From an uncultured Alphaproteobacteria bacterium (GTDB taxonomy: Bacteria > Pseudomonadota > Alphaproteobacteria > Methylaequorales > Methylaequoraceae): a stretch of DNA of 64,000 bases. The DNA is taken from NCBI GenBank assembly GCA_902563305.1, contig CACEWP010000006.1:1-64000 (forward strand), read 5' to 3'. Positions 1 through 15,795 of this stretch are shown piece after piece. The number at the start of each line of letters is the position of its first letter. The first letter of the stretch is position 1. Position numbers and translations under genes: made by a program. Below the pieces are notes generated by a model. That model worked only from the letters and a program-made list of their open reading frames with translations. It ran no database searches and was not told the origin of the DNA.

Positions 1-1
1 T

Positions 2-700
2 GAAGAATTTAGTTCAACAACTACACAAACACAAACTGGAACATCTGGGAGTGATACGATTTCCAAAGTTAATTCAACTAATCCATGGACATTAAACGGA
101 TTAGATGGAAGTGATATTCTTGTAGGTGGCAACCAAAATGATATTATTATTGGTGGTCTTGGAGCAGATACCATGACTGGAGGCCTTGGTGATGATAAAT
201 TTTATTATAGACAAGGAGATGCGGATGCAAATATTTTTGATAAAATAACTGACTTTAGGCAAAGTGGGTTAGGCAATGACCAAATAGTTGCAGGTGTAAC
301 TCAAACTAGTTCGTACACTCGTATACCAATTTATAACGACGCTGCTCAAGGTGGTAGTTATTATATTTTTAATAACCACTCTAATCAGTTGCCAACAATA
401 TTTAATTTTACTCATGATACGAGCACATCAAATATAAATACTGCAAGTTCAGTAAGTTCATATTTAGACCCTGATTTTTGGGTAACCCCAGACGGAAACA
501 CTTGGACTTCATCACTTGTAGAACAATTTATATTAGTATTTGGCGATGGAAATGATACATATACTTGGCTTTGGGAAGATACATCTAAAGGAGGAGCACC
601 AGATGCCGATGAGCTCTACCCAATAGCAATATTACCCGGTTTCGATAACGATACTATGGATGGAAGTGAGTTCCAATACCAAACCATCTCTGGTGTATGA
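2..700 (+). CDS. RTX calcium-binding repeat protein, C-terminal part
   Basis: The reading frame is open from base 2, so the gene begins outside the window and only its last 232 residues are seen. Glycine/aspartate nonapeptide repeats of the hemolysin type lie at the start (for example LDGSDILVGG and GGLGADTMTGG, then GGLGDDKFYY). After these comes an FDKITDF segment typical of the end of RTX repeat blocks, then a serine/threonine/aspartate-rich tail. RTX proteins are exported in one step by type I secretion and fold on binding calcium outside the cell. The ABC protein and adaptor immediately downstream on the same strand fit this one being their substrate. Its enzymatic or adhesive N-terminal part is not visible. 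Confidence 0.85.
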   Translation, partial: EEFSSTTTQTQTGTSGSDTISKVNSTNPWTLNGLDGSDILVGGNQNDIIIGGLGADTMTGGLGDDKFYYRQGDADANIFDKITDFRQSGLGNDQIVAGVTQTSSYTRIPIYNDAAQGGSYYIFNNHSNQLPTIFNFTHDTSTSNINTASSVSSYLDPDFWVTPDGNTWTSSLVEQFILVFGDGNDTYTWLWEDTSKGGAPDADELYPIAILPGFDNDTMDGSEFQYQTISGV

Positions 701-741
701 TGATTTTCTGTTGTATCTTTCAATTAATTAAAAGTTAAATT

Positions 742-2331
742 ATGATGTATTGGTTTCATATATTAAAGAATAGTAATTCATTAGGAACAATATTACTTTT
801 AACCCTTTTTATTACAATTATGGGGCTTCTCAGTCCAATTTTTATTATACACATTTTTAATAGATATATAGCATTTGGATTACAGGGGACTTTAATTTTT
901 CTTTTATCAGGAGCACTTGCAGTTGCAACTTTTGAATTTATTTTTAGGAATTTAAGAAATAAAATCTTATGTGACATTCTTATTAACCCAATTAAGACTT
1001 TTAAATTAGATTTAATAAAAACATTTTTTGAAAGAGAGAGTAAACTTAAAAAAAGAAACTTTATTGAAATTATTGATTTTAATAATAATTTTTTTCAATT
1101 TATCTCACCTAAAATTCAATCAAATTTATTGGATGCCTTTTTTGTAATATTCATTGTTATAATTTTATTTTTTCTTAACCTTTTATTGGCAATTATTTTT
1201 TTAATTCTAGTAATATTTTTTTTAATATTTCAACAAAGGTTGATAAAAGCAAAAAACAATCTACTTAATAAAAAAAGTCCTCTTATAAAAGACAGATTTA
1301 TTATGAAGGAGTTAGGTTCTAATGAGGAATTATTGAAATCAACTCATTCATTTAAATATACTGGATTCTATATAGAAAGTTTTTTAAATAAAAAGCTCGA
1401 CTTTGATTCCTCCCTAGCGAAATATGACGCTCAGCAAATATCATCAACTAGTTATTTTATATTGATTTTCTCTATTTTAACAATTGGTATTGGGAGTATG
1501 TTAGTAGTGAATGGAAATTTATCTATAGGAAGTCTTATAGGGTTTAATATATTTGCAACTAGAGCAATAGGTACAATCTCGTCAGTACAGAATTCACTTT
1601 CAGTACTTGAGAAGATTAATGTTTATCTCGAAGATTGTAAAAACTTTTTTAAAGATTCAAAAAATAGAGCAGAAGGAATGCAGTTAAGTAAACTTACAGG
1701 TAATATTAATCTGAATGACATTAGTTATGTATACGATACTGAGTCTAAATATGTTATAAAAAACTTTTCAACAAAATTTAGCTCATCAAAAATTAATGTT
1801 ATTTTAGGAAAAAATGGATCTGGTAAATCTACTTTGGCTAAACTAGTAGTAGGTCTATTAAAGCCAGAATCTGGAAACGTTTCAATAGACGACACGAACC
1901 TAGATAAACTCTCATTGATTTGGTTTAAAGAGAATGTTGCTTATATACCTCAAGAATCAGATATACTCAATTCTTCTGTTTTGAATAACATTTTGATATC
2001 TAATCCTGACTTAAATCAACAAGAGGTGAGTAGGTTGTTACAAAATGTTGGATTAGACGAAGAATTAAAAAATTCAAATTTAACCTTAACAGACACAGTT
2101 AATAATAAATTATCAAAAGGAATTTTAAAAAAAATTCATATCGCCAGATCAATTTCTAAAAATTATCAAATTTACGTTTTTGATGATCCAACACTTTATC
2201 TTGATAGTGAGGGAAGGATTATGGTAATTAAATTAATAACATCGTTAAAGAGAGCTGGTAAAACGATAATATGCTTTTCAGAAGAAAAGGAAATTATTGA
2301 GTTAGCTGATACTAAAATAAAATTAGAATAA
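742..2331 (+). CDS. Type I secretion ABC transporter (PrtD/AprD-like)
   Basis: A 529-residue fused permease-ATPase. It has hydrophobic helices through about residue 290 and a nucleotide-binding domain from about 320. Walker A (GKNGSGKS) lies near residues 356-363. It has no peptidase-like N-terminal domain, which matches the PrtD/AprD class that exports RTX proteases and lipases. The ATPase motifs are unusual: the signature reads LSKGI instead of LSGGQ, Walker B runs into FDDP with Asp where the catalytic Glu is normal, and the switch His is replaced in a CFSEEKE stretch. It lies 41 bp after the RTX gene and 3 bp before the adaptor gene, so it is co-transcribed with both. Family assignment is firm; ATPase strength is uncertain. 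Confidence 0.88.
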   Translation: MMYWFHILKNSNSLGTILLLTLFITIMGLLSPIFIIHIFNRYIAFGLQGTLIFLLSGALAVATFEFIFRNLRNKILCDILINPIKTFKLDLIKTFFERESKLKKRNFIEIIDFNNNFFQFISPKIQSNLLDAFFVIFIVIILFFLNLLLAIIFLILVIFFLIFQQRLIKAKNNLLNKKSPLIKDRFIMKELGSNEELLKSTHSFKYTGFYIESFLNKKLDFDSSLAKYDAQQISSTSYFILIFSILTIGIGSMLVVNGNLSIGSLIGFNIFATRAIGTISSVQNSLSVLEKINVYLEDCKNFFKDSKNRAEGMQLSKLTGNINLNDISYVYDTESKYVIKNFSTKFSSSKINVILGKNGSGKSTLAKLVVGLLKPESGNVSIDDTNLDKLSLIWFKENVAYIPQESDILNSSVLNNILISNPDLNQQEVSRLLQNVGLDEELKNSNLTLTDTVNNKLSKGILKKIHIARSISKNYQIYVFDDPTLYLDSEGRIMVIKLITSLKRAGKTIICFSEEKEIIELADTKIKLE

Positions 2332-2334
2332 AAA

Positions 2335-3609
2335 ATGAGCGATAACTGGACTAAATGGAGCATTAATGAAAACGTTAAAACTGAAGCCAGGGTTTTAATT
2401 AGTAAAAAGCTAAAGTTATCTTTACTTTTTTTTCTTATTACTTTCTTAGTTCTCATTAATGTGAAGATTATTGAAGTATTAAGCTTAGCAGAAGGTAAAA
2501 TCATACCACAAGGAAGAATAAAGTATGTTCAACATTTAGAGGGTGGTATTGTTGAACAAATTTTAATCAGTGAGGGTGAAAAAGTGCAAATTAATCAACC
2601 TCTCGTTATTTTATCTAAAGAAAAAGCATCATCAGAATTTGAAGAAATAAATGCAAGACTAAAATCCATTGAATTATCAATTTTTAGAGTTGAAGCAGAA
2701 AAGAATCAAGATATTTTAATAAAGATTCCTGAAAGCAAAAAGAAATTATTTGACAAAGAACTTGTTAAATCTGAAAATGAGCTTTTTAAAAGTAGAAAAA
2801 AGGCAATTAATTCTGAAATAAAATCTAAAAAAGCAAACATTGATAAAGCTACAAAAAATTTAAGAAATTTAAAAAAAAGATTAAAAATAGTTAAAGAACA
2901 GGAATCAATTAGTCAGAAACTATTGGAGGTAGAGGCAACTAATAGACTAAAACATCTAGAGTTACTTAGTGAACGTCAAGAAGTTGAATCAAGTATTGAT
3001 GAACAACAATCAATTATCGATTTAAGTAAAAATGACTTGGAAAAGGTCAAAAATAATTATGCTGAGCAAATTAATAGAGAATTATCTGAGTACAAAAATG
3101 AAAAAGAGGAATTAAATAAAAGAATTCAAAAATATTCTGATAGCCTCAAAAGAACTGTTTTAAAAAGTCCAGTTTCTGGAACTGTAAAACTTATTTCAGT
3201 AAACTCAAAAGGTGCGATTGTTGCTCCTGGTGTAACAGTTGTAGAAATAGTTCCTGAGAATGAAAAACTCATCATTGAAGCAAAACTTCCTTTGTCTGAA
3301 ATTGGTTATGTAAAAAAAGATCTGGAAGCAAAAATACGTCTAAATACCCCTGAAGGTTCAAGATTTAGATCAATTAAAGGAAGAGTTGTGTTTGTTGGGG
3401 CAGACAGAATTTCAAGTAAAGAAGATGATGGTTTTTATTTGGTAAAAGTCGAAACTTCTGAAAGATCATTTTCACGGAAGAATGAGGAATATCGGCTTTT
3501 TTCAGGAGTTCCTGTTGTTGTGGGTATAATTACTGGCAAAAGAAGTTTTATAGACTATTTTTTAACTCCATTTTTAACAAATGTATCTTTTGCGTTTTCA
3601 GAAAGATAG
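2335..3609 (+). CDS. Type I secretion membrane fusion protein (HlyD/AprE family)
   Basis: A 424-residue periplasmic adaptor. It has one N-terminal transmembrane helix (about residues 27-50), a biotinyl-lipoyl-like segment around residues 60-95 (HLEGGIVEQI), a long lysine/glutamate-rich coiled coil (about 95-275), then the returning lipoyl half and a beta-barrel segment (LKSPVSGTVKLI onwards). HlyD proteins link the inner-membrane ABC protein to TolC. It starts 3 bp after the ABC gene, which shows a shared operon. No TolC gene follows here; the one at 14434-15795 could serve both secretion systems. Confidence 0.9.
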   Translation: MSDNWTKWSINENVKTEARVLISKKLKLSLLFFLITFLVLINVKIIEVLSLAEGKIIPQGRIKYVQHLEGGIVEQILISEGEKVQINQPLVILSKEKASSEFEEINARLKSIELSIFRVEAEKNQDILIKIPESKKKLFDKELVKSENELFKSRKKAINSEIKSKKANIDKATKNLRNLKKRLKIVKEQESISQKLLEVEATNRLKHLELLSERQEVESSIDEQQSIIDLSKNDLEKVKNNYAEQINRELSEYKNEKEELNKRIQKYSDSLKRTVLKSPVSGTVKLISVNSKGAIVAPGVTVVEIVPENEKLIIEAKLPLSEIGYVKKDLEAKIRLNTPEGSRFRSIKGRVVFVGADRISSKEDDGFYLVKVETSERSFSRKNEEYRLFSGVPVVVGIITGKRSFIDYFLTPFLTNVSFAFSER

Positions 3610-3615
3610 ATATGA

Positions 3616-3915
3616 TTATTTAACAGACGATTTAGCTATTGTATCAGATTTGAAAATAACCCCATTTTTTTGAGTAGCTAGTTTAAGATGATTGTATAAC
3701 TCATCAAAAACTGAATTTCCTTTTCTTTCTTTAACTATTAAAGTTAAAATATCAGCTTCACTTGCATCACCAAACTGTTGGATATCAAAAATATCTGAAG
3801 CTCTTCCATTTGCAAAACCTACAGAGACTACATCTTTATTGTTGGAAAATTTTTTAACAACTGATTGTCCAAGCCCTTTTTTGATTAGACCGCCAATTTC
3901 AACAAATTTAGACAT
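3616..3915 (-). CDS. Small PII-like protein
   Basis: A 99-residue protein in a PII-type pair. Its start overlaps the stop of the upstream PII-like gene (TAATG), so the two are translationally coupled. The sequence is divergent, and a PII-like fold is inferred from size, from beta-alpha-beta-like spacing and from position behind a clearer PII homologue. PII proteins are trimeric sensors that bind ATP/ADP and small metabolites and gate membrane transporters. With the DUF1538 gene upstream it forms a three-gene unit, so its likely partner is that membrane protein. No uridylylation tyrosine motif was found. Confidence 0.6.
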   Translation of the reverse strand: MSKFVEIGGLIKKGLGQSVVKKFSNNKDVVSVGFANGRASDIFDIQQFGDASEADILTLIVKERKGNSVFDELYNHLKLATQKNGVIFKSDTIAKSSVK

Positions 3916-4277
3916 TATCTTGTTCCTCCAGCTCTTTTTATAACGTCTTTAGGTATATGGGTAGCTACCCTGTCTAATTTTACCATCCACATAATTCCTT
4001 TTCCAGGGGTATCAAGATCTCCTGCTAAATACATTGATTCAAAAACTCTGTTTGACTGTTCTTTTGAAACAATAATCCTTATTATTTCTTTTTGTTCGTC
4101 GATAGTTACTCCCAACAGTCCCATTCTATTTCTGATACCTGTTCCTCTAGCATAGTTGATTGTAGCACCCTGAGCTCCTACATTGGTTGCCGCATCAATT
4201 ATCTTGTCGGCTAAGCCACTTTCAACTACACATGTTATTAAAAAAACATCTGTTAAATAAGTAATTTCTCTAGCCAT
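3915..4277 (-). CDS. PII family signal transduction protein
   Basis: A 120-residue protein. An N-terminal strand and helix (YLTDVFLITCVVESGLADKI) and a short loop containing GATINYARGTG, where the T-loop of PII proteins sits, are followed by a C-terminal GKGIMWMVKLDRVATHIP segment like the PII C-loop. It lacks the canonical GlnB T-loop tyrosine motif, so it belongs to a divergent group rather than GlnB/GlnK. It is 6 bp downstream of the DUF1538 gene and overlaps the next PII-like gene by one base. I infer that it regulates DUF1538 transport in response to a nucleotide or metabolite, as PII does with AmtB. Confidence 0.75.
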   Translation of the reverse strand: MAREITYLTDVFLITCVVESGLADKIIDAATNVGAQGATINYARGTGIRNRMGLLGVTIDEQKEIIRIIVSKEQSNRVFESMYLAGDLDTPGKGIMWMVKLDRVATHIPKDVIKRAGGTR

Positions 4278-4283
4278 AATAAT

Positions 4284-5987
4284 TTATCCTTTATTTTTTT
4301 GTTTAAATTGTATAAAAAGTCCCATCAAAAGCACAGCAAGTATAGGGCAAATACTTGCCATTGATAAGATACCAAAACCTTCGGTAGCTGATACAGCATT
4401 ACCTAACCCAAGACCCATTGCGAGGACAAGAGGTACAGTTACTGGCCCAGTAGTCACACCAGCACTATCCCATGCAACATTAACAAATTCTTCTGTTGAA
4501 AAATAAGTTAAAACAACAGCTAGTAAATATAGAGGGATTAGAACAGTTGCCAAATCAAAAGCAAAAACAATTTTTCCTACTCCCAAAGCAATACCAAATG
4601 CAACCCCGCCTGCAACGCTGTACATTAGCATAGATTTTTTAAAAGCTCCGTTAGTCAATTCTTGCACAGTTAAACCTAAAGCATTTAAAGCAGGTTCTGC
4701 AAGTGTAGCACCGAAGCCTAAAAGCCAAGCAAACAGTATAACTATAGTTAGGCCTAGCAATTCAGAATAGATAGGGGAGACTTCACTAATTGAAACTTCC
4801 ATAAATGCAGCGGGAAGATTTGTTCCTGCCTGACCACCAATAGCTCCTAAACCGTACGTAAGACCAATATTAAAAACACACATTCCTACAATTGAGAGTG
4901 TTAAACCATATGTTGTAATTAAATTATTTGGTAACTTAGATCGTAATATTACAAATAGAACAAGCATTAAGAAAATTACAAGAGGAAGTATTGCTCTTAC
5001 ACCGCCAATTATTTCAACAAATGGTGTTTGCGACCATTTTGAGATTTGAGATGAGCTTGCATCAGATGCTGTTGATGCTATAGCTAAAATCTCATCAACT
5101 GACATTGTTTGAGAAACTTGAATAGCTAGTATCAAAACAGCAATAATTGGAAATAGCGAGGCCATTGTTACAACACCAAATCCAGATAAAGATGAATCTC
5201 CTTTTCCAGCAGATGCAGCTATTCCAATTCCCAGAGATAGAACTAATGGAACAGTTACTGGACCGGTTGTCACTGCTCCACAATCCCATGCCAGCCCAAG
5301 TATTGTTCTTAAATCAGGGTTGCTCCAAACATACGCAGTTAATAATATTGTTGGTGTTAGTGCAAGATATATAAGTGGTTTTAATGACCATCCTCTCACA
5401 AAACGAATTGTTCCTATTATAGCAGCGAGCCCTACACCTGCACCCACCATCACTACTAACGTTTCACTTCTATTATTTAAAATTTCGTATAAATATGGTG
5501 CATCCTGAGGATTGATTGATGATCCAAATGCTTTCAAGGCTCCTATGGCCGGTTCTGCATATGTTACACCAACACCTAAAATTCCAATAATTATCAATAC
5601 AAGAAACATAGGTGCTTTTTTAGGTAAAGTATCACCAATTACATTTCCAAAAGGCATTAATCCAGTTTTCAAACCCTCCATGAATATGGCAAGACCTACA
5701 ATAACTGCTATTAGTCCAAGACAAATAGTGGTTGCAGAAGATATTGGTTGTCTTAAAATCAAAAGTTGAAAAAGAAATAAATAAGCCGCCAAAGGAACAA
5801 CAGCTTTAATTTGTTCCATTATACGAGTTAATGTATAGGGTGCTAAAAGAGAAAGCGCTTTGGCTGGCGAAACTTTTATTTTCCCAGGTTTAAGGGATTT
5901 TCCTTTTGCGGGTTTTGGAGTAAGCAGATTATAACTTAAGGATTTATGATTAATTTCTGATTCGTGTATATAATCTGAATACTTCAT
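4284..5987 (-). CDS. DUF1538 membrane protein (predicted transporter)
   Basis: A 567-residue polytopic inner-membrane protein with a clear internal duplication. EPAIGALKAFG in the first half matches EPALNALGLTV in the second, and WDCGAVTTGPVTVPLVL matches WDSAGVTTGPVTVPLVL. Two inverted or parallel repeats of this type are typical of carriers. The conserved acidic and threonine/glycine motifs within the membrane probably form the substrate site. The cytosolic N-terminus is about 60 residues and lysine-rich. The family has no established substrate that I know of. It is followed immediately by two PII-like genes, which suggests gating by nucleotide-binding regulators. Confidence 0.85.
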   Translation of the reverse strand: MKYSDYIHESEINHKSLSYNLLTPKPAKGKSLKPGKIKVSPAKALSLLAPYTLTRIMEQIKAVVPLAAYLFLFQLLILRQPISSATTICLGLIAVIVGLAIFMEGLKTGLMPFGNVIGDTLPKKAPMFLVLIIIGILGVGVTYAEPAIGALKAFGSSINPQDAPYLYEILNNRSETLVVMVGAGVGLAAIIGTIRFVRGWSLKPLIYLALTPTILLTAYVWSNPDLRTILGLAWDCGAVTTGPVTVPLVLSLGIGIAASAGKGDSSLSGFGVVTMASLFPIIAVLILAIQVSQTMSVDEILAIASTASDASSSQISKWSQTPFVEIIGGVRAILPLVIFLMLVLFVILRSKLPNNLITTYGLTLSIVGMCVFNIGLTYGLGAIGGQAGTNLPAAFMEVSISEVSPIYSELLGLTIVILFAWLLGFGATLAEPALNALGLTVQELTNGAFKKSMLMYSVAGGVAFGIALGVGKIVFAFDLATVLIPLYLLAVVLTYFSTEEFVNVAWDSAGVTTGPVTVPLVLAMGLGLGNAVSATEGFGILSMASICPILAVLLMGLFIQFKQKNKG

Positions 5988-6029: not shown

Positions 6030-6506
6030 TCAAATGGAATAGAAGGTATGATCTGTGGATCTTTCTAATCTATAAAATATCTGCTTTGTTATTTTAGTAA
6101 TTAACTCATTTTCTGATTTTAATATTTCGTCAATCTCTACTCGAGAATATTTTACAGTCTGAAACTCTGATCTTTTAGACAGTTCTTTACAAAGTTCGAT
6201 TATTAATTGTTTTGCTTTTTCAGAAGCCGAACTTAGAAGTTCATCAAAGTTTTCTTTATTTATTGATATCAATTCAGTGGGTTTGTTTGAGATAATTGTA
6301 GCACTTCTATTTTGATCAAGAATTAATGCCATTTCTCCAAATACTTCACCGTCTCTCATTGCTCCAACTTTTTTTCCGTCAACCAATACATCCATTACCC
6401 CATGTACAATCATGTAAGCATGATCTCCTTTATCTCCTTGATTAAATAGGGTTTCTCCGTCTAGCATCAAAACCTTCTTTGTTTTTCCATAAGTAATAAA
6501 TTTCAA
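6030..6506 (-). CDS. Small cyclic nucleotide-binding protein
   Basis: A 158-residue soluble protein made of one CNB domain (about residues 10-115) and a helical tail with no DNA-binding helix-turn-helix recognised. The phosphate-binding cassette reads GEVFGEMALILDQNRSATI, keeping the FGE and Arg needed to bind the cyclic phosphate. The start codon overlaps the stop of the upstream CNB gene (ATGA-type overlap). It is the last gene of the cyclase/secretion operon, so it probably reads the cAMP made by the adenylate cyclase two genes upstream. Being a lone domain, it may act by binding a partner rather than DNA. Confidence 0.82.
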   Translation of the reverse strand: MKFITYGKTKKVLMLDGETLFNQGDKGDHAYMIVHGVMDVLVDGKKVGAMRDGEVFGEMALILDQNRSATIISNKPTELISINKENFDELLSSASEKAKQLIIELCKELSKRSEFQTVKYSRVEIDEILKSENELITKITKQIFYRLERSTDHTFYSI

Positions 6507-6943
6507 GAAAATATCCTTTGTGAGAGTCTGTAATGCAGTTGTAAAGCCAATGCTCTAATCACATTGGGAGCATCTTTTGAAAGTTCAAGCAGTTGAGATT
6601 TTGTAATTGGGAGTTTCTGCTCATTGTTTTTACCCAATTCTTTAGACATTTCATTAATTGCTTTGTGAAGATCGATATTTGAGGACAGTAAAATTGCTTC
6701 AAGAGCCTTTTTTTTAATTTCTACTACCTCACTTGGCACAATAGCTTTTATACTAGCTTTTCTATTTTCATTAAGAATTAAAGATAGTTCGCCAAAGATT
6801 TCTCCGGTTTCAATTTTTCCTACTTTTTTACCATCCACTTCAGCAACTAGTCCTCCAGATATAACTAAAAATGCTGTTTCACCCTTATCATTTTGCTTAA
6901 CAATATACTGATCTGGTAATACTCTTATTTTTTTTAAACCCAT
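6503..6943 (-). CDS. Small cyclic nucleotide-binding protein
   Basis: A single CNB-domain protein of 146 residues. The phosphate-binding cassette reads GEIFGELSLILNENRKASI. I chose the ATG at 6943, which begins MGLKKIRVLP; a longer frame opens at 6988 but would overlap the cyclase gene by 34 bp and adds residues outside the domain. It is a paralogue of the next gene and of the CNB domain fused to the secretion adaptor, so three CNB domains share one operon with one cyclase. It has no membrane segment and no recognised output domain. Confidence 0.82.
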   Translation of the reverse strand: MGLKKIRVLPDQYIVKQNDKGETAFLVISGGLVAEVDGKKVGKIETGEIFGELSLILNENRKASIKAIVPSEVVEIKKKALEAILLSSNIDLHKAINEMSKELGKNNEQKLPITKSQLLELSKDAPNVIRALALQLHYRLSQRIFS

Positions 6944-6954
6944 TTTTAAACTAA

Positions 6955-9327
6955 CTATTTTGATGTAGCAATAAACACTCCATCCCATTCTTTAGGAGGA
7001 GGTGATAATTTAAATTCATTAATTCTTTCTGTCATCATTTCATAGTAATCACTCATTACATTTTTACAAAGAGTTTTTGCTTTTATAATCTCTTCGAGTG
7101 CCTCTTTCCATTTTTGATTAAAATAAAACTCTAAAATTTTGTTATGTTTTTTTTCAAGTTCTTTAAATTCTTTTGATTCTTTATACTCAGGGTCTCCAAG
7201 TAAACAATAAATTGATACAGCTTCTTTTTTTCCTTTCACTGCCAACATATCAAGCTGAAGTGTTGCAAAAGAATTTTTAACCGCTTCATTGGTTTCCTGT
7301 CCGATTACAGTTTTAACTCCATAACCTTTTGATTGTCCTTCTAATCTTGAAGCTAAATTTACAGCATCTCCAAGAACCGAGTAATCAAATCTCTGGTCAG
7401 ACCCCATATTTCCAACAACACATCCTCCAGTGTTTAAACCTATTCCTATTTTTAATTCTAAAAATTTTTTATTTACTTCTCTAGCTTCCTCTTCTCTTTT
7501 ATCATTAAGTTCTTGGAGTGCTTTATGCATACTTAGAGCAGCTTCACATGATATTTTCTCATGATCATTAACATCAATCGGAGCATTCCAAAAAGCCATA
7601 ATGCAATCCCCCATATACTTATCAATTGTTCCATTCTTACTAATAATTTCATTTGTAAGTGGAGTAAGGAATCTATTAATTAATTTTGTTAAACCCTGTG
7701 GATCAGATTTGAATGCCTCCGAAATTGTTGTAAAACCTCTTACATCACAAAAAAGAAAAGTCATTTTCTTTGTTTCTCCTCCTAAAACTAACTTTTCAGG
7801 ATCTTCTGCTAATTGCTCAACAAGGGCAGGGGAGAGGTATTGAGAAAATGCTCCTCTAATTTGTTTTTTCTCATTAGCATCTCTTAAATAATTGGCAAAT
7901 GTATTACTAAAATAGATTATAAAAGTTGATACTCCAGCAAATGTTGGGTCAAAAAGAGTTTTTTGGTCTAAAAAGAGTTTAACACTCATGTAGAATGCAG
8001 ATCCAATAACAGTAACTAAAAGTGAAATATTTAGAATTGGTCCAAACTTTAATGCAGATATTGTAATAAACAAAGCTAACAGAACTGAAAATAGAGCCTC
8101 ATAAAATTTCATATTAGCTCCAGACTTAAGAAAAGGCGATCCTTTTATCTGAACCTTATTTTTTTGAACTAAAGCATCCTCTTCAGACATTCCTTTTTTA
8201 ATAGCCTGTTGGTATGTTTTTTCTGAATTTTTAGATGATGTATAGAATAAAATAGCAGAAATCACTGTATCAATTAAGTTTGCATGAATTTCAACTCCAG
8301 GCATTCTGTCATCAACAGGAGTCGGACGAATGTCTTTTAAACCAGTTGCTGAAGTTCCTAGAATTCCAAGTTTCCCTTGAAGCCTCTCTTTGCCAACTCT
8401 TCCTTTGATAATGTCTACAGCACTTACATAATATCTTGACTCATTATCTTTAGCTTTAGGAGCGTCAGACTCACCGTAGTATATCCATACTCTTCCATTT
8501 TCATCAGTAGGAATTGCAGCATTTCCTATTGCTTTAGTTTGAATTATAATTTCTTCAATTCCAGTTATACCCGTTCTTGTAGCAATACTATTTCCTTGAA
8601 ATGCCACTCTAATCATATCTAAACCAAGAGTTGGTCTAATTTTACCTGCTACATTAGATATTAGTGGAACTCTTCTTATTATTCCATCGGGTTCCTCTGC
8701 AACGGAAACTGTACCAGAGCCTGAAGCTGCCTTTTCAAATTCCTTAACATTAGCAAGTAACCCAGGGTAAGATACAAGCCAATCTTTTGGGCTTTTTCCT
8801 TTACCTAAAAAAACTTTGACTGAGGATTCATTGATGTCCTCTCTTTTTGCATCACCTTCAACATCAAGTCCTGAATGACCGATTACAATTGGAAATTTTT
8901 CCATAATCGCCATTGCTAAAAGTTCGTTGGAAGGTAGCTCTTTCAGAAGCCTTGCAAGTTCAGGGTTTCTCTTTTCCAAATCTTTAGAGATTAATTCAGG
9001 GGAGGTCCTATCTTTTTCGGCAAATAATACATCTAATCCTAGAACCAGCATACCCGCATCTTTAGATTTTTCAAAAAGATCAGCTAAAACAGTTCTTGGC
9101 CACGGCCATTGCCCAATTTCCCTTAAGGATTTTTCATCAATGTCGACAATTACGGAATAAGTTTGACCATCTGTTGATCGAGGATACTTTTTTTGAAGAA
9201 CATCAAAATATTTCAGTCTCATTACTTCAACAATTTCAGGGTCTGCTATTCTCACCAACCCAAAAAACAATGCCATAAAAATAGAAGCTAATGTAACAAT
9301 AAATCTAAAGCTTACTTTAAATTTCAT
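6955..9327 (-). CDS. CHASE2-domain adenylate cyclase
   Basis: A 790-residue class III nucleotide cyclase that makes cAMP from ATP. An N-terminal membrane helix (about residues 5-25) leads to a long periplasmic CHASE2 sensor (about 35-400), then three closely spaced transmembrane helices (about 405-485) and a cytosolic catalytic domain (about 515-700). Both metal aspartates are present (FCDVRGF near 525 and YMGDCIMAFW near 570). The substrate and transition-state region reads FDYSVLGDAVNLASRL, whose Asp favours adenine over guanine. The start overlaps the stop of the CNB-adaptor gene by one base, so it is in the secretion operon. CHASE2 ligands are unknown; I infer it senses a periplasmic or envelope signal linked to secretion. 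Confidence 0.9.
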   Translation of the reverse strand: MKFKVSFRFIVTLASIFMALFFGLVRIADPEIVEVMRLKYFDVLQKKYPRSTDGQTYSVIVDIDEKSLREIGQWPWPRTVLADLFEKSKDAGMLVLGLDVLFAEKDRTSPELISKDLEKRNPELARLLKELPSNELLAMAIMEKFPIVIGHSGLDVEGDAKREDINESSVKVFLGKGKSPKDWLVSYPGLLANVKEFEKAASGSGTVSVAEEPDGIIRRVPLISNVAGKIRPTLGLDMIRVAFQGNSIATRTGITGIEEIIIQTKAIGNAAIPTDENGRVWIYYGESDAPKAKDNESRYYVSAVDIIKGRVGKERLQGKLGILGTSATGLKDIRPTPVDDRMPGVEIHANLIDTVISAILFYTSSKNSEKTYQQAIKKGMSEEDALVQKNKVQIKGSPFLKSGANMKFYEALFSVLLALFITISALKFGPILNISLLVTVIGSAFYMSVKLFLDQKTLFDPTFAGVSTFIIYFSNTFANYLRDANEKKQIRGAFSQYLSPALVEQLAEDPEKLVLGGETKKMTFLFCDVRGFTTISEAFKSDPQGLTKLINRFLTPLTNEIISKNGTIDKYMGDCIMAFWNAPIDVNDHEKISCEAALSMHKALQELNDKREEEAREVNKKFLELKIGIGLNTGGCVVGNMGSDQRFDYSVLGDAVNLASRLEGQSKGYGVKTVIGQETNEAVKNSFATLQLDMLAVKGKKEAVSIYCLLGDPEYKESKEFKELEKKHNKILEFYFNQKWKEALEEIIKAKTLCKNVMSDYYEMMTERINEFKLSPPPKEWDGVFIATSK

Positions 9328-11060
9328 TAAGGCTCCGCGAAACTATTACCAAGTGTTCTTATAAGGGGATATATAAAGTATGTGATCAATCTTCTTTGAC
9401 CAACTTTAAATTTTCCTGATACTTTCATTCCAGGCATTAGATTAAATCCTGGTGGGGTGTCCTTTAATTCATTTTCTGTTATCTGTGCTCTTGCTCTGTA
9501 AAAATTACCTGGATTACCATCAACATCTTTGTCAATTGTATCTGCTGAAACATAAATAAGTTTCCCTTTTAATTCTCCGTGTTTTTGTGCAGGCAGTGCA
9601 TTTAGTTGAATCTTTACTGATGTATCAGTTATTAATTTACTAATGTCGGATGGGTCAACATCAAAGACTGTTAGCAACTCAACTCCAGTTGGAACTAATG
9701 TAACAACACTTTTCCCTTTGGTTATAACAGCTCCAGGGTATAATGAATGAAGATTTAAGATCATTCCATCAGAAGGAGCTCTGACTATCACATCAGTCTG
9801 TTCACGTTCAAGTTTTTTCAAATCCTCATTTAATGACATTCTTTGATCTTCAAGTCCAACAAGTTCATCGTTAATTCCTCCGAAAAATTGGCTATTATAT
9901 TCTTTTCTATTAGACTTTAACTCACTTAGTTTATTACTTGTTTTGGTAAATTCCTTTTCAAGAGATAGACTTTTATTTTTTTCAGCTAAAACTTGTGATT
10001 CAGCTACAAGATCAAGTTCAAACAACTCCACTTTTGAATCTTCAAGCTTTTTTTGAATATCAAGTTGTTCCTTAATGAATTTTAGATCATCTTCTGTTGA
10101 ACCAATTTGTTGATCAAGTGACGCAATCTTTGCTAAATATTGATCTTTTTTATCCCTAAAGATCCTACTTTGTCTTTCATCATTAGGATTTGCTACAGAC
10201 ACATTGTTTCTCAAAAGTGACTGTTTTTTTAATCTATCAATTTTTGAATTAACTACAGTAAGTTGATAATCAAGTTTCATTCTATCGGCTTTTTGAAGTG
10301 TTGCATCAAATATTACAAGAGGCTCTCCTTTTGCAACACTTTCACCTTTTTTAACTAATATTTCTTTTACAACAGAATTGTAATTAGACTGAACTTCGAC
10401 GTTTGGAACTACTGTAGTTATTTTTCCGGATGCGGATATTGTTGTATCAATTTCAGAAATTGTACCCCATGCTATCAAAAATAAAACGAGAAAGCCAAAT
10501 GAATAGACTGACATTTTTACAGATTTAGGCACTTGCTTAGTTTTTATTCTATCAATATCATCGTCAAACTCATCTAAAAGCTCATTCATCATTTTTTTCT
10601 TAAATCTACTTTCTTTATCCTCTTTGGTCAGTTCTTCTTCTGATTGTTCCAGGATTTCTCCATCATTTCCAGATTCAAATGCATCGACTGAAAGTTTTTC
10701 GTTTGCATTCCTTGCATAACTTGCAAGTTGTTGCATCATGTTAAAAGCAGTTTGAGGTGAGTTTTTTAAATAACCTAACAACGCATTCTGATCTATTTCT
10801 TTAACTGTTGTTTCTTCTGTTGCACGAGCCATTGCACTTCTAGGTTGTTTATCAATTAAAGCCATTTCTCCAAAAAGCGCACCTTTCTCTAATATAGATA
10901 AAGTGACGTATTCATCGCCATTAAACTTACATACTTCTATCTTTCCTTTGACAACCTGGTAGGCAAAGTCTCCTACTTCACCTTCTCTGAAAAGAACATC
11001 TCCTGCTGCTAAATTTCTAACAGCCGGTTGTTGGGTTTGTGAGGACTTTTTTTCAGCCAT
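9327..11060 (-). CDS. CNB domain fused to HlyD-family secretion adaptor
   Basis: A 577-residue fusion. Residues about 15-135 form a cytosolic CNB domain with an intact cassette (FGEMALIDKQPRSAMARA). An acidic linker follows, then one transmembrane helix (about 180-205), a lipoyl half, a long coiled coil (about 255-415) and a second lipoyl plus beta-barrel part, as in HlyD. HlyD proteins normally have only a short cytosolic tail, so the CNB domain sits exactly where it could report cAMP to the ABC protein at the start of export. The gene lies 4 bp after the ABC gene and overlaps the cyclase gene. The frame is continuous and shows no sign of artificial joining. Confidence 0.9.
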   Translation of the reverse strand: MAEKKSSQTQQPAVRNLAAGDVLFREGEVGDFAYQVVKGKIEVCKFNGDEYVTLSILEKGALFGEMALIDKQPRSAMARATEETTVKEIDQNALLGYLKNSPQTAFNMMQQLASYARNANEKLSVDAFESGNDGEILEQSEEELTKEDKESRFKKKMMNELLDEFDDDIDRIKTKQVPKSVKMSVYSFGFLVLFLIAWGTISEIDTTISASGKITTVVPNVEVQSNYNSVVKEILVKKGESVAKGEPLVIFDATLQKADRMKLDYQLTVVNSKIDRLKKQSLLRNNVSVANPNDERQSRIFRDKKDQYLAKIASLDQQIGSTEDDLKFIKEQLDIQKKLEDSKVELFELDLVAESQVLAEKNKSLSLEKEFTKTSNKLSELKSNRKEYNSQFFGGINDELVGLEDQRMSLNEDLKKLEREQTDVIVRAPSDGMILNLHSLYPGAVITKGKSVVTLVPTGVELLTVFDVDPSDISKLITDTSVKIQLNALPAQKHGELKGKLIYVSADTIDKDVDGNPGNFYRARAQITENELKDTPPGFNLMPGMKVSGKFKVGQRRLITYFIYPLIRTLGNSFAEP

Positions 11061-11064
11061 TTAA

Positions 11065-13236
11065 TTATCCTGCCTTTTTCATTGATTTGACTTTAGTTTC
11101 TAATCCTAAAATTGACATTTGTTTTGTATAGGTTTCGCCAAAATATCCAGATGCGTTTTTTAAGTCTTCAAAGGATCCACTCTGAATAATTTTACCATCA
11201 TTTAAAACAAAAATTCTATTACATAATCTCAGATGCCATACACGATTTGACACAATAATTATGGTTCGTCCAAGAGCAATATCCGACAATGCATCATATA
11301 ATTTTATTTCACTGTCTACATCAAATCCTGTAAAGGCATCGTCTAAAATTAAAATTCTAGGATTTCTAATTAATGCTCTTGCAATTGCTAATTTTTGTCT
11401 TAACCCTGTTGACAAATTCGTGGCATTTTCTTCTAGAAAAGTTTCATATCCATCTGGATATGATTCTATTTCATCATGTGCAAAGACCTTTTTTGCTGCC
11501 CATGTTATTCTGTCCATTGATGAATTAGGCATAGCACTCGCAATTGTTTCTCTTATTGTACCAGGAAAAAAATAACTATCAGTTCCAACCAGTGAAACTT
11601 GAGACCTAACATGACTTAAATCTAACAAACGTAGGTCAATATTATCAAGTGCAACAATTCCCGCCTGAGGTCTATACAAGCCTTGAATTAATTTAGCTAT
11701 TGTACTTTTACCACATCCACTTTTTCCTGTAATTCCAACAATTTGCCTAGGATTAATTTCTATATCAATATCATTTAAGACTTTAGTATTGTCATCATAT
11801 CCAAACTCAACATTTTTAAAGCTCACTTGTCCCATAAGTTGAGGTTTTTGTCCTCTAACAGTTGTTTCTGAATTTGCATCAACAATACCAGAAATGATTT
11901 GGAGTGATTGAACTAATTTTGTAATTTCAGTTTTAAGTGTAACTAAATCAATAATTGGTTTGGATACTCTCGATGCTAGCATATTAAAACCAACCAATAT
12001 ACCTGCAGAAAGCGAGCCAGAAAAAACTAGATGAACTCCAACAAAGATCACCATTGCTGTCATTAATTGATTTATAGTAGAAGAGATATTATTCAAAACT
12101 GCAGATTTTTTTTGCATCTCTTCGTTGGCAATAATATAGTTTGCTTCTAAATCTCTCCATTGATCTTTTAAATTTGGCTCAAGCGCAAGCCCTTTAACAT
12201 TTTCAATACCATTTACAGCAACAGAAATAAATTCTTGCCTTTGGGATTCAGCCTTACTTAACCCTGACAAAGAATCTCTTTGTTTTTTTGAGTAAAACAT
12301 TGATGCTAGGGCTCCAAGAATACTGAAAGAGAAAACAACGATAAAAAGTAAAGGACTATAAAAAAATAAAATTGGAACAAAAACGAGGAGACTTATTGAG
12401 TCTAATCCTGTAGATATGACTTTTTGTGTTAGAAGGCTTTTAATCTGAGAGATCTGACCAGTAAATCTTAAAAATGTAGCAGATTCTTTGTGGAACCTCT
12501 GCATTGGAAGAGCTATTAGTTTTTCAAAAACTTTAACAGAGAGTTTGGCTTCAACTTTTTGTGCGAAAAAATCTAAAAGATAAGATTTTAAATAACCTAA
12601 TATTCCGTTAAAAATATATGCTACAACTACCCCAGATGTAATTACGTATAAAGTTGAGTATGCTTCGTAGTTTACTACTTTATCAAGTACAAGCATCATA
12701 AAAACTGCTGGTATAACTGCAAATATATTAAGAATTAAAGCTACAATGATTACCTGAGTCATTACTGACTTATTTCTGAAAGACTCGCCAATAAGCCATC
12801 CTAATTTTAATTCACTGTCCTCCTCAAATTTTTTTAACTTGGCTTTTAATAGAATTACTTCGCCTTCCCAACCTTTGGTTAGTTCTTTAATATTTATTTG
12901 TTGAGGTTTTGGTGAGGTTACACCTGTGTCCAAACACAGTATAGATTTGTCACTTTCTTTTTCGCCAGTTATTACTCTAAGTGCAATAATATATCTTCCA
13001 TTTTTTAATCTTAGGATTTGTTGTTTTTTTGTTAATAATTTTAATAATTCTTTTTCGTTAATTTTAGTTGCTTTTGCTTTTAAATCAAATGTTTGGGCTA
13101 GCTCACACATTTCAGATGGTTTTAATTCTCTATCATCGATTTGAAATCTCTCTGGAATATCATTTGGACCAATATGGACCCCTAGTTGTCTTGCAACTAA
13201 AATAATAGATTTTTGAGAACCACGCATTGCTTCCAT
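11065..13236 (-). CDS. Type I secretion ABC transporter with peptidase-like N-domain (HlyB-like)
   Basis: A 723-residue protein. An N-terminal C39-like domain (about residues 1-140) lacks the catalytic Cys, as in HlyB. It is followed by a six-helix membrane domain (about 155-440) and a nucleotide-binding domain. Walker A is GKSGCGKST near 503-511. The signature is LSTGLRQ instead of LSGGQRQ, Walker B continues as LDDAF with Asp in place of the catalytic Glu, and the switch region reads VSNR where His is expected. Non-cleaving N-domains bind unfolded type I substrates. The substrate candidate lies directly upstream, the adaptor directly downstream. The same three ATPase deviations occur in the other ABC protein of this window. 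Confidence 0.9.
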   Translation of the reverse strand: MEAMRGSQKSIILVARQLGVHIGPNDIPERFQIDDRELKPSEMCELAQTFDLKAKATKINEKELLKLLTKKQQILRLKNGRYIIALRVITGEKESDKSILCLDTGVTSPKPQQINIKELTKGWEGEVILLKAKLKKFEEDSELKLGWLIGESFRNKSVMTQVIIVALILNIFAVIPAVFMMLVLDKVVNYEAYSTLYVITSGVVVAYIFNGILGYLKSYLLDFFAQKVEAKLSVKVFEKLIALPMQRFHKESATFLRFTGQISQIKSLLTQKVISTGLDSISLLVFVPILFFYSPLLFIVVFSFSILGALASMFYSKKQRDSLSGLSKAESQRQEFISVAVNGIENVKGLALEPNLKDQWRDLEANYIIANEEMQKKSAVLNNISSTINQLMTAMVIFVGVHLVFSGSLSAGILVGFNMLASRVSKPIIDLVTLKTEITKLVQSLQIISGIVDANSETTVRGQKPQLMGQVSFKNVEFGYDDNTKVLNDIDIEINPRQIVGITGKSGCGKSTIAKLIQGLYRPQAGIVALDNIDLRLLDLSHVRSQVSLVGTDSYFFPGTIRETIASAMPNSSMDRITWAAKKVFAHDEIESYPDGYETFLEENATNLSTGLRQKLAIARALIRNPRILILDDAFTGFDVDSEIKLYDALSDIALGRTIIIVSNRVWHLRLCNRIFVLNDGKIIQSGSFEDLKNASGYFGETYTKQMSILGLETKVKSMKKAG

Positions 13237-13268: not shown

Positions 13269-13306
13269 AAAAAAAAAACCCCCTTAGAAACTCTAAGGGG
13301 GTTTTA
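13269..13306 (-). terminator. Strong intrinsic terminator between substrate gene and ABC gene
   Basis: A GC-rich hairpin with stem AACCCCCTTAGA paired to TCTAAGGGGGTT lies 19 bp past the stop of the Pro/Gly/Asp-rich gene and is followed on the minus strand by a run of about ten T. It sits inside a transcription unit of secretion genes, so it would make the substrate transcript abundant and the transporter transcript scarce by partial read-through. Confidence 0.85.
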
Positions 13307-13324: not shown

Positions 13325-14317
13325 TTAAACTACTTCTCCACCATCATTTGGATCATCAGGAGGTGGCGGCATATCTGCCGGCATATCACCTGGTTCCATT
13401 CCAGCAGCAGGGTCTATTGGAGGCCCTTCTGGAGCATGATGAGCTCCTGCGTCGTCCATGTGCGTATGCATATCACCCATTCCATCTGGAGGGGGCATAT
13501 CACCTGGTCCACCTGGTCCACCTGGTCCCATATCACCCGGAGGAGGCATGTCGCCTGGAGGAGGCATATCACCTGGTGGTGGGCCACCAGCTGGTCCACC
13601 CTCACCAAATAATGGATCTGGTCCGCCTGGTCCCATATCGCCTGGAGGAGGTGGAGGCATTCCGTCACCATCCATATCAGCACCTGGAGGAGGTCCACCT
13701 GGTCCCATATCTCCCGGAGGAGGCATATCACCTGGTCCGCCTGGACCCATATCTCCCGGAGGAGGCATATCACCTGGTCCGCCTGGACCCATATCTCCTG
13801 GAGGAGGCATATCACCTGGTCCGCCTGGACCCATATCTCCTGGAGGCCCCATTTCTGTCATAGGTCCTGGTTCCCACGAATCAGGCATAGCTCCAGCGTC
13901 AAATTCAGGTCCACCAGCAAAGTCTCCATAAGGAGGTGCACCGTCCATAAAACCGCCAAAGTCATCAGGCATAGGAGGCATATCGCCAGCCATATCCATA
14001 CAAGGCATATCAGCAGGAAAATCTGCTAAAAACATATCAACTCCACCGCCGACTGCATCAAATGCATCCATTGGGGGAGAATCAGGATTAGCTGCCATGT
14101 GGGCATCAAAACAACCCTGAGCGACATCTGCTATATTTGCCATCATATCAGGTGGCATACCAGCATCAGCCATAAAGTCCATTGCTGCTCCCATACCTTC
14201 AGAGAAGGCTGCACTGGGATCCGCAGCAAAGTCAGCCGCTTGAAACGGACCCATTGCTGCATCGCCGGCGGCTTCAGCAAAAGCTTCCATTTCAGGTGGC
14301 AAAGTAAATTCTGCCAT
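13325..14317 (-). CDS. Pro/Gly/Asp/Met-rich repetitive protein without Lys or Arg, probable type I substrate
   Basis: A 330-residue protein of extreme composition. Residues 1-150 are Ala/Asp/Met/Pro-rich; residues about 150-290 repeat a 14-residue unit (PGDMGPGGPGDMPP). No lysine or arginine is present anywhere, and acidic residues dominate. It has no Sec signal peptide. The C-terminus ends in acidic residues and EVV, which resembles some type I export signals. It sits between tolC and the ABC/adaptor genes on the same strand, which makes it the best candidate cargo. It may bind calcium or form a disordered, sticky surface polymer; both are inference. GC is far above its surroundings because of Pro/Gly/Ala codons. 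Confidence 0.8.
   Translation of the reverse strand: MAEFTLPPEMEAFAEAAGDAAMGPFQAADFAADPSAAFSEGMGAAMDFMADAGMPPDMMANIADVAQGCFDAHMAANPDSPPMDAFDAVGGGVDMFLADFPADMPCMDMAGDMPPMPDDFGGFMDGAPPYGDFAGGPEFDAGAMPDSWEPGPMTEMGPPGDMGPGGPGDMPPPGDMGPGGPGDMPPPGDMGPGGPGDMPPPGDMGPGGPPPGADMDGDGMPPPPPGDMGPGGPDPLFGEGGPAGGPPPGDMPPPGDMPPPGDMGPGGPGGPGDMPPPDGMGDMHTHMDDAGAHHAPEGPPIDPAAGMEPGDMPADMPPPPDDPNDGGEVV
13700..13850 (-). repeat. 42-bp in-frame tandem repeat
   Basis: About three and a half nearly identical 42-bp units, each encoding one 14-residue PGDMGPGGPGDMPP unit of the surrounding gene. Degenerate units continue on both sides. Near-identity at third positions points to recent expansion by slippage or unequal recombination, so copy number probably varies between strains. 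Confidence 0.8.
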
Positions 14318-14433: not shown

Positions 14434-15795
14434 TTAAATTCCTAGATTTTCAAAATTCAAAATACCACACAATTTGAGAAGTTCAAAAGATGATACTATT
14501 AGTTGAAATTGGGCATTAACCAAATTTGATTCGGCATTAGTAAGATCTTTTTGAGCGTCTAATATTTCCAATGTAGTTCTTGTTCCAACACTTGCTTCCT
14601 TAGTTACACCTTCAACCGCCATAACATTCGATTCAACTGATACTTCTAATGATTCAATACTCGATTTAGAACTTTCAATTTTTTTCCATGCAGATTTTAT
14701 TTGAAAAGTTAGATCTAATTTTTTAGTTTCAATAGACTTAATGATTGTCAGTGCGGAGTCTTTTGATTTTTCAAGATTCAACATATTATGCCCTTTGTTA
14801 AATAAAGGTAAAGTTACTTTTCCTGTAACTGAGAAGGAATCAGTTCTTTCAACTGTTCTCGATGAATCAAGAGATTTTCCTACTGAACCAGTTACGGAAA
14901 ATTCAGGAGCGAAATTTAGATTATTCTTTTTAATGTCTAGCTTAGAATTTGTTAATTGAATTAAGAGCTTTCGATAATCTGGATTTTTTTTTAAACCAGT
15001 TTCAATTGAGTCATCAAGAGAAGAGGGTATAGATGGCATTTCACCAAATCTTGACCAATCTTTTGGATTAGATTCTACAACTTGCGTATCATCAGAGTTG
15101 TCAAACCATTTAATATTTGGTTCTCTTCCGACTACAGACTTAAAATCTGATTCAGAGATTTCAAGATTATTTTCTGCTTCTATTCTCTTTGATACAGCTT
15201 CTGCTAACCTTGCTTTAGCTTGAAATACGTCTGTTTTTGTAACGTCTCTAAACTCAAATCTTTTTTCAGTGGCCTCTAGTTTGGTTATGAGATTTTGTTC
15301 GTTTCTTTTTGCTACATCAAGAAGAAAGTGATCTTTGAGAACAGTATAATATGCTTTGCTAGCCTTAAAAAGTACATCTTGCGTAGTTGCATAAAAACTT
15401 AATCTTGCAATACTCAGTTTATTTTTTGCTTGCTTTAAATTTATTGCTTTTGTGTATCCTAAGGGTTGCGATAAATCAACATCAAACGTTGAAGGATTGA
15501 ATGCACTGTCATTAATTCTTGAAGTATCTGGATTGCTTTTTGTAATTTTTCTACCCTGAGTAGCAGAAAAGTCGAGAGAGGGTAAAAAATCAGTCTTAGA
15601 AATAGTTACGTCTTTTTCAGAAATCTTTAACTCTGTTTTGCTTTTTTCAATATCAGGATAAAAATTATACGCATCACGTAAAACATCAGCAAGTTCCTCA
15701 GAGTGTGAGGTAAAAGGTAAGAATATACTCAGTATTAAGATTAACTTTAGTTTACAATTCACTTTTTTGGCAACCATTTCCTCACAATTATTCAA
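14434..15795 (-). CDS. tolC: TolC-family outer membrane efflux/secretion protein
   Basis: A 453-residue TolC-like protein with an N-terminal signal peptide (hydrophobic segment LILILSIFLPFTSHS) and two related halves rich in long alpha helices. It has the family's typical asparagine/alanine heptads near the end (ILDAQKDLTNAESNLVNAQF). TolC forms the outer-membrane channel for type I secretion. It is the first gene of the minus-strand secretion region and 116 bp upstream of the repetitive-protein gene. It is the only TolC homologue in the window, so it may also serve the RTX exporter at 742-3609. Confidence 0.9.
   Translation of the reverse strand: MNNCEEMVAKKVNCKLKLILILSIFLPFTSHSEELADVLRDAYNFYPDIEKSKTELKISEKDVTISKTDFLPSLDFSATQGRKITKSNPDTSRINDSAFNPSTFDVDLSQPLGYTKAINLKQAKNKLSIARLSFYATTQDVLFKASKAYYTVLKDHFLLDVAKRNEQNLITKLEATEKRFEFRDVTKTDVFQAKARLAEAVSKRIEAENNLEISESDFKSVVGREPNIKWFDNSDDTQVVESNPKDWSRFGEMPSIPSSLDDSIETGLKKNPDYRKLLIQLTNSKLDIKKNNLNFAPEFSVTGSVGKSLDSSRTVERTDSFSVTGKVTLPLFNKGHNMLNLEKSKDSALTIIKSIETKKLDLTFQIKSAWKKIESSKSSIESLEVSVESNVMAVEGVTKEASVGTRTTLEILDAQKDLTNAESNLVNAQFQLIVSSFELLKLCGILNFENLGI

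Follow-up and report, generated by a model that had tools for sequence, protein, structure and literature searches.

In Caulobacter, the S-layer protein RsaA, an RTX-type protein that forms a Ca2+ lattice, is an abundant surface protein exported by the type I secretion system (T1SS) RsaDEF, and its gene lies beside those of its exporter. In Ehrlichia, TRP32, TRP47, and TRP120 are acidic tandem-repeat T1SS substrates with a C-terminal signal (PMC10225607). The rules by which T1SSs accept a substrate are contradictory as described, since negative charge helps export by TliDEF and positive charge helps that of HlyA. For a T1SS-type ABC exporter, cationic stretches block export and removing or neutralizing them rescues it; in TliDEF, nearby acidic residues neutralize lysine and arginine (K/R) (PMC9223453), and a total absence of K/R is thus more than a charge filter by itself would require. 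Secretion of HlyA by E. coli increased with positive charge (PMC9235172), and such a filter is therefore not general. An entire exporter clade whose cargo has been purged of K/R over long evolution offers a natural and testable extreme. We found no published literature on K/R-free T1SS cargo or on HlyD exporters with a cyclic-nucleotide-binding (cNMP) domain.

The window analyzed here, the whole stretch of 64,000 nucleotides from an uncultured alphaproteobacterium, carries on its minus strand a gene (13325..14317; start ATG at 14317, stop at 13325) for a 330-residue protein that we propose to be such a cargo. The protein is rich in Met, Asp, Pro, and Gly (P 23%, G 20%, D 15%, M 12%, A 12%) and, as the preliminary description had claimed, contains no lysine and no arginine and is strongly acidic, with a net charge of -60 and a calculated pI as low as the scale allows. 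By contrast, the four neighboring proteins of the T1SS cluster contain 11.9-13.9% K+R. Among the 69 open reading frames of at least 100 residues in the window, this one alone is K/R-free, and the second-lowest in K/R is the antisense frame of the same gene. The gene has a GC content of 54% (GC3 0.27) in a window of 29%, because of its amino-acid content. It is conserved and is coded on the minus strand. Between the window and a homolog (L021), differences fall 28/29/128 on the three codon positions (third position 128 of 185), dN/dS is 0.10/0.82, or about 0.13, and every antisense frame contains stops in all 16 homologs; these observations rule out a chance reading frame or an antisense artifact, including the antisense coding strand that had been named as an alternative.

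The protein opens with about 98 non-repetitive residues that lie outside the repeat. AlphaFold, run with five sequences, predicts a four-helix bundle at residues 8-98 (14024..14296, minus strand, as are all features below; pLDDT mostly 73-91, bounds also from the alignment) and disorder in the rest, so the earlier picture of a disordered acidic polymer describes most of the protein, its repeats included, but not its whole length. Pfam, NCBIfam, and PDB hold nothing that this N-terminal domain matches significantly, the best hits of its profile in PDB being de novo designed helical proteins, and Foldseek gives no match to known folds with E<=0.001. A tandem array of a 14-residue unit, GDMPPPGDMGPGGP, predicted to be disordered, occupies 13692..13846; Tandem Repeats Finder reports a period of 42 bp, 3.7 copies, and a 97% match, and the repeat unit noted earlier is real. 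A DMDGDGM segment at 13658..13678 could, from its sequence, be a Ca2+ loop (D-x-D-G-D-G). The last 50 or so residues (280-330; 13328..13480) form a proposed C-terminal secretion signal, with the motif MGDMHTHMDDAGAHH, an acidic tail, and the end -GGEVV, and the motif occurs in distant cargos. Across cargos of all lineages the C-terminal 50 residues have in common MDxA and then an acidic Pro/Gly tail with a hydrophobic end, which is EVV, DVV, or DIV in many, and a motif 'hMDxAxxxG' with this acidic-hydrophobic end is common to cargos that are distant and otherwise unrelated. T1SS signals are reported to be enriched in LDAVTSIF; most cargo of the order lacks this enrichment, and several other lineages have it. 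By inspection, the N-terminus, MAEFTLPPEMEAFAEAAGD, has neither a basic n-region nor a hydrophobic core and thus no Sec or Tat signal.

In the window the gene order is TolC, cargo, ABC transporter, and HlyD with a cNMP domain. The TolC-type outer-membrane channel (14434..15795) matches PF02321 (E=1e-53) and, just under cut-off, TIGR01844 (E=7e-64). The T1SS ABC transporter (11065..13236; PF00664, PF00005, PF03412), whose best NCBIfam match is HlyB (TIGR01846, under cut-off), begins with a degenerate C39-like domain. The HlyD periplasmic adaptor (9327..11060; TIGR01843, E=1e-65, above cut-off) begins with the cNMP domain (PF00027, E=1e-19). A bacteriocin system with a C39 peptidase and double-glycine leader was considered and rejected: the Peptidase_C39 match begins at profile position 20, the aligned exporter N-termini lack a conserved Cys close to the Q17 motif, and the cargo has no leader. 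Further along lie a CHASE2 sensor joined to a class III adenylate/guanylate cyclase (6955..9327; PF05226, PF00211) and two small cyclic-nucleotide-binding proteins (6030-6506 and 6503-6988; PF00027). A cyclase also lies upstream of the system in L111, L113, and L114. Directly 3' of the cargo stop, an intrinsic terminator hairpin (13275..13305) separates the gene from the exporter operon; terminators follow 30 of 32 cargo genes, compared with 0.8% of shuffled sequences. The cargo is therefore probably its own transcription unit, which is what one would expect if it were needed in far greater amount than the exporter.

The protein resembles RTX proteins of T1SSs in its acidic Gly/Asp-rich repeats, its place beside ABC, HlyD, and TolC genes, its lack of an N-terminal signal, and its proposed C-terminal signal. 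It differs in being Met/Pro-rich, in lacking the RTX nonapeptide, and in containing no K/R at all compared with 0.7-3.4% in the T1SS cargos compared; assignment to RTX or another known family was rejected, since no Pfam or NCBIfam model matches and there are no GGxGxDxUx repeats. As described, RsaA is like it in adjoining its exporter and unlike it in belonging to the RTX type and building a Ca2+ lattice. By description, too, it shares acidic tandem repeats and an alphaproteobacterial origin with the Ehrlichia TRPs but differs in exporter, repeats, and host lifestyle, and the part of that source available to us describes no K/R exclusion for TRPs (PMC10225607). Depletion of K/R is graded among the T1SS cargos compared, and the present clade is the extreme: RTX cargos of a second T1SS of related cells contain 0.7-1.3% K/R (4 in 574 residues in L093, 8 in 637 in L094), others 1.3-3.4%, and an RTX fragment in the window 3%.

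The order, which consists of one family, was examined in 32 genomes, and those relatives that carry names are single-cell genomes of marine origin. The N-terminal domain is matched in 22 of the 32 and the exporter is found in 24, with exporter genes flanking the cargo in nearly all homologs. The order's 22 cargo sequences contain one Lys and no Arg in 6106 residues; all other minor residues occur, among them W (4), C (30), Y (53), I (56), L (69), H (73), N (76), Q (77), S (157), and T (164). A contig end truncates many of the cargos known from any lineage, and the family members, being related, are not independent counts. Of the 2970 possible single-base changes in the cargo, 295 (10%) give K or R; K is only 1 of 759 replacement residues observed. 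Several assemblies end at or beside the cargo gene, an effect to be expected of its repeats. A stand-alone paralog of the N-terminal domain, 111 residues long and without a family match, occurs in the window's own genome (L041:3279-3614, contig C23) and in L042-L051. Ten such paralogs contain 83 K/R in 1120 residues (7%), which shows that the domain accepts K/R when outside the cargo and makes the paralog a matched control for a charge rule. In relatives it adjoins genes for PII (GlnB-type), aminotransferase, and GlnA/glutamine-synthetase-like proteins. Extra cargo copies without an adjoining exporter occur at L030:7220-7708, L024:6695-7534, and L035:8824-9579; the first has an MGPNQD repeat and is Asn/Gln-rich and K/R-free.

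Outside the order, a profile of the N-terminal domain finds the same arrangement in two further alphaproteobacterial families, one of 56% GC, at which arginine is normally common. A scan of the named genomes with an alignment of cNMP-domain HlyD proteins found 23 exporter loci, full or partial, and most of those not cut by a contig end adjoin a K/R-free acidic reading frame with its own repeat type. With HlyD as bait, acidic reading frames free or nearly free of K/R were found beside the exporter in G089/G381 (GC 0.56), G286, L096, L098, L099, L102-L104, and L110-L114, and at six more loci (L190, L191, L193-L196) of another proteobacterial class, probably Magnetococcia. The search for other K/R-free repeat proteins beside type I exporters that the preliminary description had proposed thus finds them recurring across three classes: Alphaproteobacteria, this second class, and, in one genome, Gammaproteobacteria. 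Cargos outside the order contain 3 K/R in 3468 residues. Their repeats include GNMPPDAMGGMTADHM in L111, with the His/Met repeats TADHM and PHDAM, GDVTGLTGDM in L102, DPMAGG in L098, EGEQPPPFDGEHQ in the gammaproteobacterium L108, and, in the second class, QPPMDG, GMPPPPEGE, and others, L190 having QPPMDG/HH. The gammaproteobacterial cargo (L108:5203-7500) has a homologous N-terminal domain with some K/R, and the reading frame of its long EGEQPPPFDGEHQ repeats is broken in the assembly. At L099:13432-14160, in a genome of 62% GC, K/R-free left-handed beta-helix (hexapeptide) repeats with Cys lie 3' of a cNMP-HlyD system.

When 49 HlyD sequences are placed on a tree, keeping one of each pair of apparent duplicates (L098 and L192, Magnetococcales and the same contig; L092 and L039; L094 and L037; L095 and L021; L097 and L087), one clade holds the K/R-free cargo: 31 members have it, 2 show no K/R-free neighbor, and 1 is unassigned. 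The K/R-free label changes 3 times on this tree, compared with 13.7 in shuffles. For L101 and L106, exporters of the clade, no K/R-free neighbor was seen. The exporters of L173, L174, and L198-L202 also have a cNMP-domain HlyD but form separate branches, in which no K/R-free neighbor was seen, and the cNMP domain is therefore rejected as the cause of K/R exclusion. L173 and L198-L202 adjoin large reading frames with about 3-6% K/R (1501 residues in L173, about 620-680 in L198-L202) and a conserved DGAWWADKPDA-like start, possibly another cargo family. The C39-like domain of the exporter is more basic in the K/R-free clade (p=0.0006, ignoring relatedness and with the K/R-free locus L092 misplaced among the others), which speaks for a charge filter. 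The transmembrane domain does not differ in charge from that of other exporters, and a more positive one was rejected as the reason for K/R exclusion. No copy of the exporter was found in viral contigs.

With moderate confidence, we favor a reading in which the protein is a dedicated T1SS cargo and polyanionic exoprotein from which a charge filter in the exporter has kept K/R, possibly under cAMP control. Its starting points are features visible in the sequences: the conservation of the gene, the exclusion of K/R, the linkage to one exporter clade, the common C-terminus, and the terminator. From these we infer a substrate dedicated to a distinct T1SS branch, built of a folded helical N-terminal domain, long disordered Asp/Met/Pro/Gly repeats, and a C-terminal signal made of 'MDxA' and the acidic tail with its hydrophobic end. 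Such a protein would leave the cell through ABC, HlyD, and TolC in one step, without a Sec signal. K/R would be excluded because the exporter accepts hardly any positively charged residue in what it carries, the extreme of a charge filter that certain ABC exporters are known to have. The likeness to TliDEF/LARD3 of Pseudomonas fluorescens is that the exporter there rejects cationic stretches (PMC9223453); the limit in that system is local charge density, whereas here K/R are absent almost everywhere. Export would probably be switched by a cyclic nucleotide from the neighboring CHASE2 cyclase, sensed by the cNMP domain of HlyD, and outside the cell the protein would be a mostly disordered polyanionic polymer in slime or a surface coat. 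Against this reading stand the TliDEF and HlyA results cited above, the lack of LDAVTSIF enrichment in most of the order's cargo, the extra copies away from an exporter (L024, L030, L035), the exporters L101 and L106, the cargos with 1-3 K/R (L022, L102, L113, L190), and the K/R in the N-terminal domain of L108.

The lack of K/R could instead reflect protease resistance, if each K/R in a disordered exoprotein would be a cleavage site for dissolved trypsin-type proteases of seawater. Most of the trypsin-type activity reported from seawater is dissolved (PMC5641328), the bulk of the cargo is predicted to be disordered, and the exclusion affects K and R alike but spares His. This account is nevertheless unlikely to be the main cause: the N-terminal domain, predicted to be folded, lacks K/R as fully as the tail does, the RTX cargos and the RTX fragment mentioned above keep their 0.7-1.3% and 3% K/R in the same water, and sites for other proteases (F, Y, L, M) remain. 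The trypsin resistance suggested in the preliminary description stands insofar as the protein has no trypsin sites, but the evidence better fits an exporter that keeps positive charge out of its cargo, though the two are not fully separated. We rank the export filter first and protease resistance next, and the two could operate jointly. Slightly less probable again is an exoprotein whose Met, Asp, and His scavenge or hold metal ions or Ca2+, binding that K/R would disturb. The DMDGDG loop, the MHTHM...HH motif, and the content of Met (12%) and Asp (15%) in the window cargo point that way, as do the His/Met repeats of L111. The loop, present in many homologs and in L103, is missing from several homologs, the Met/His motif is part of the common C-terminal region, His is absent from the L036/L037 cargo, and no known metal-binding family matches; the calcium or metal holding proposed earlier is not supported as stated, and neither is attachment to the cell surface. 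Metal binding would be compatible with the charge filter as a function rather than as the cause.

Two further accounts fare much worse. An oligotroph might avoid nitrogen-rich side chains in a protein lost to the sea, and side-chain nitrogen per residue is indeed 0.048 in the cargo compared with 0.30-0.33 in its neighbors, with PII-like genes in the cluster. Yet cargos rich in Asn, Gln, or His remain free or nearly free of K/R (L030, 0.216 nitrogen per residue; L111, 0.146; also the QPPMDG/HH repeats of L190 and the EGEQPPPFDGEHQ repeats of L108), and Met is costly, so nitrogen economy is rejected as a general cause and is very improbable, although it may add to the effect in some lineages. 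Least probable of all is the absence of selection, in which a handful of codons, by chance free of K/R, expanded into a simple repeat. The array is nearly perfect at the DNA level (97%), as this account would have it, but the non-repetitive N-terminal domain and the unrelated repeats of other lineages are K/R-free as well, which refutes it, and almost none of the single-base changes that would yield K/R are seen.

Having no trypsin sites, the protein would be missed in trypsin proteomics, as had been predicted from the sequence. Since it also seems to break assemblies and has no family model, a marine exopolymer, possibly an abundant one, could escape proteomics, assembly, and annotation. Tentatively, and with rather less confidence than in the charge filter itself, we suggest that these loci could represent an undescribed cyclic-nucleotide-sensing T1SS branch with a near-absolute 'no positive charge' rule, whose product coats or surrounds uncultured marine bacteria and goes unseen by trypsin metaproteomics.

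Beyond the small cyclic-nucleotide-binding proteins, the window encodes a DUF1538 protein (4284..5987; PF07556, E=8e-107; NF041627 and NF041628 under cut-off), a UmpA-UmpB fusion; the family is one of Na+,Li+,K+/H+ antiporters, and in Halomonas UmpAB exchanges Na+ (Li+, K+) for H+ (PMC5484666). Beside it are a PII-like protein (3915-4277; PF00543) and a small protein paired with it (3616-3915), a pair kept beside DUF1538 in L103 and L111. Two distant alphaproteobacteria, Magnetovibrio sp. (L103, 3870-6298) and UBA4588 (L111, 1913-4301), likewise have DUF1538 and the PII-like pair in the vicinity of this T1SS, and DUF1538 and the first PII are about 70% identical between these and the window (3616-5987). 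The start of the window (1-3609) holds a second type I system, with an ABC transporter at 742-2331 and HlyD at 2335-3609, preceded by the end of an RTX protein truncated by the contig start.
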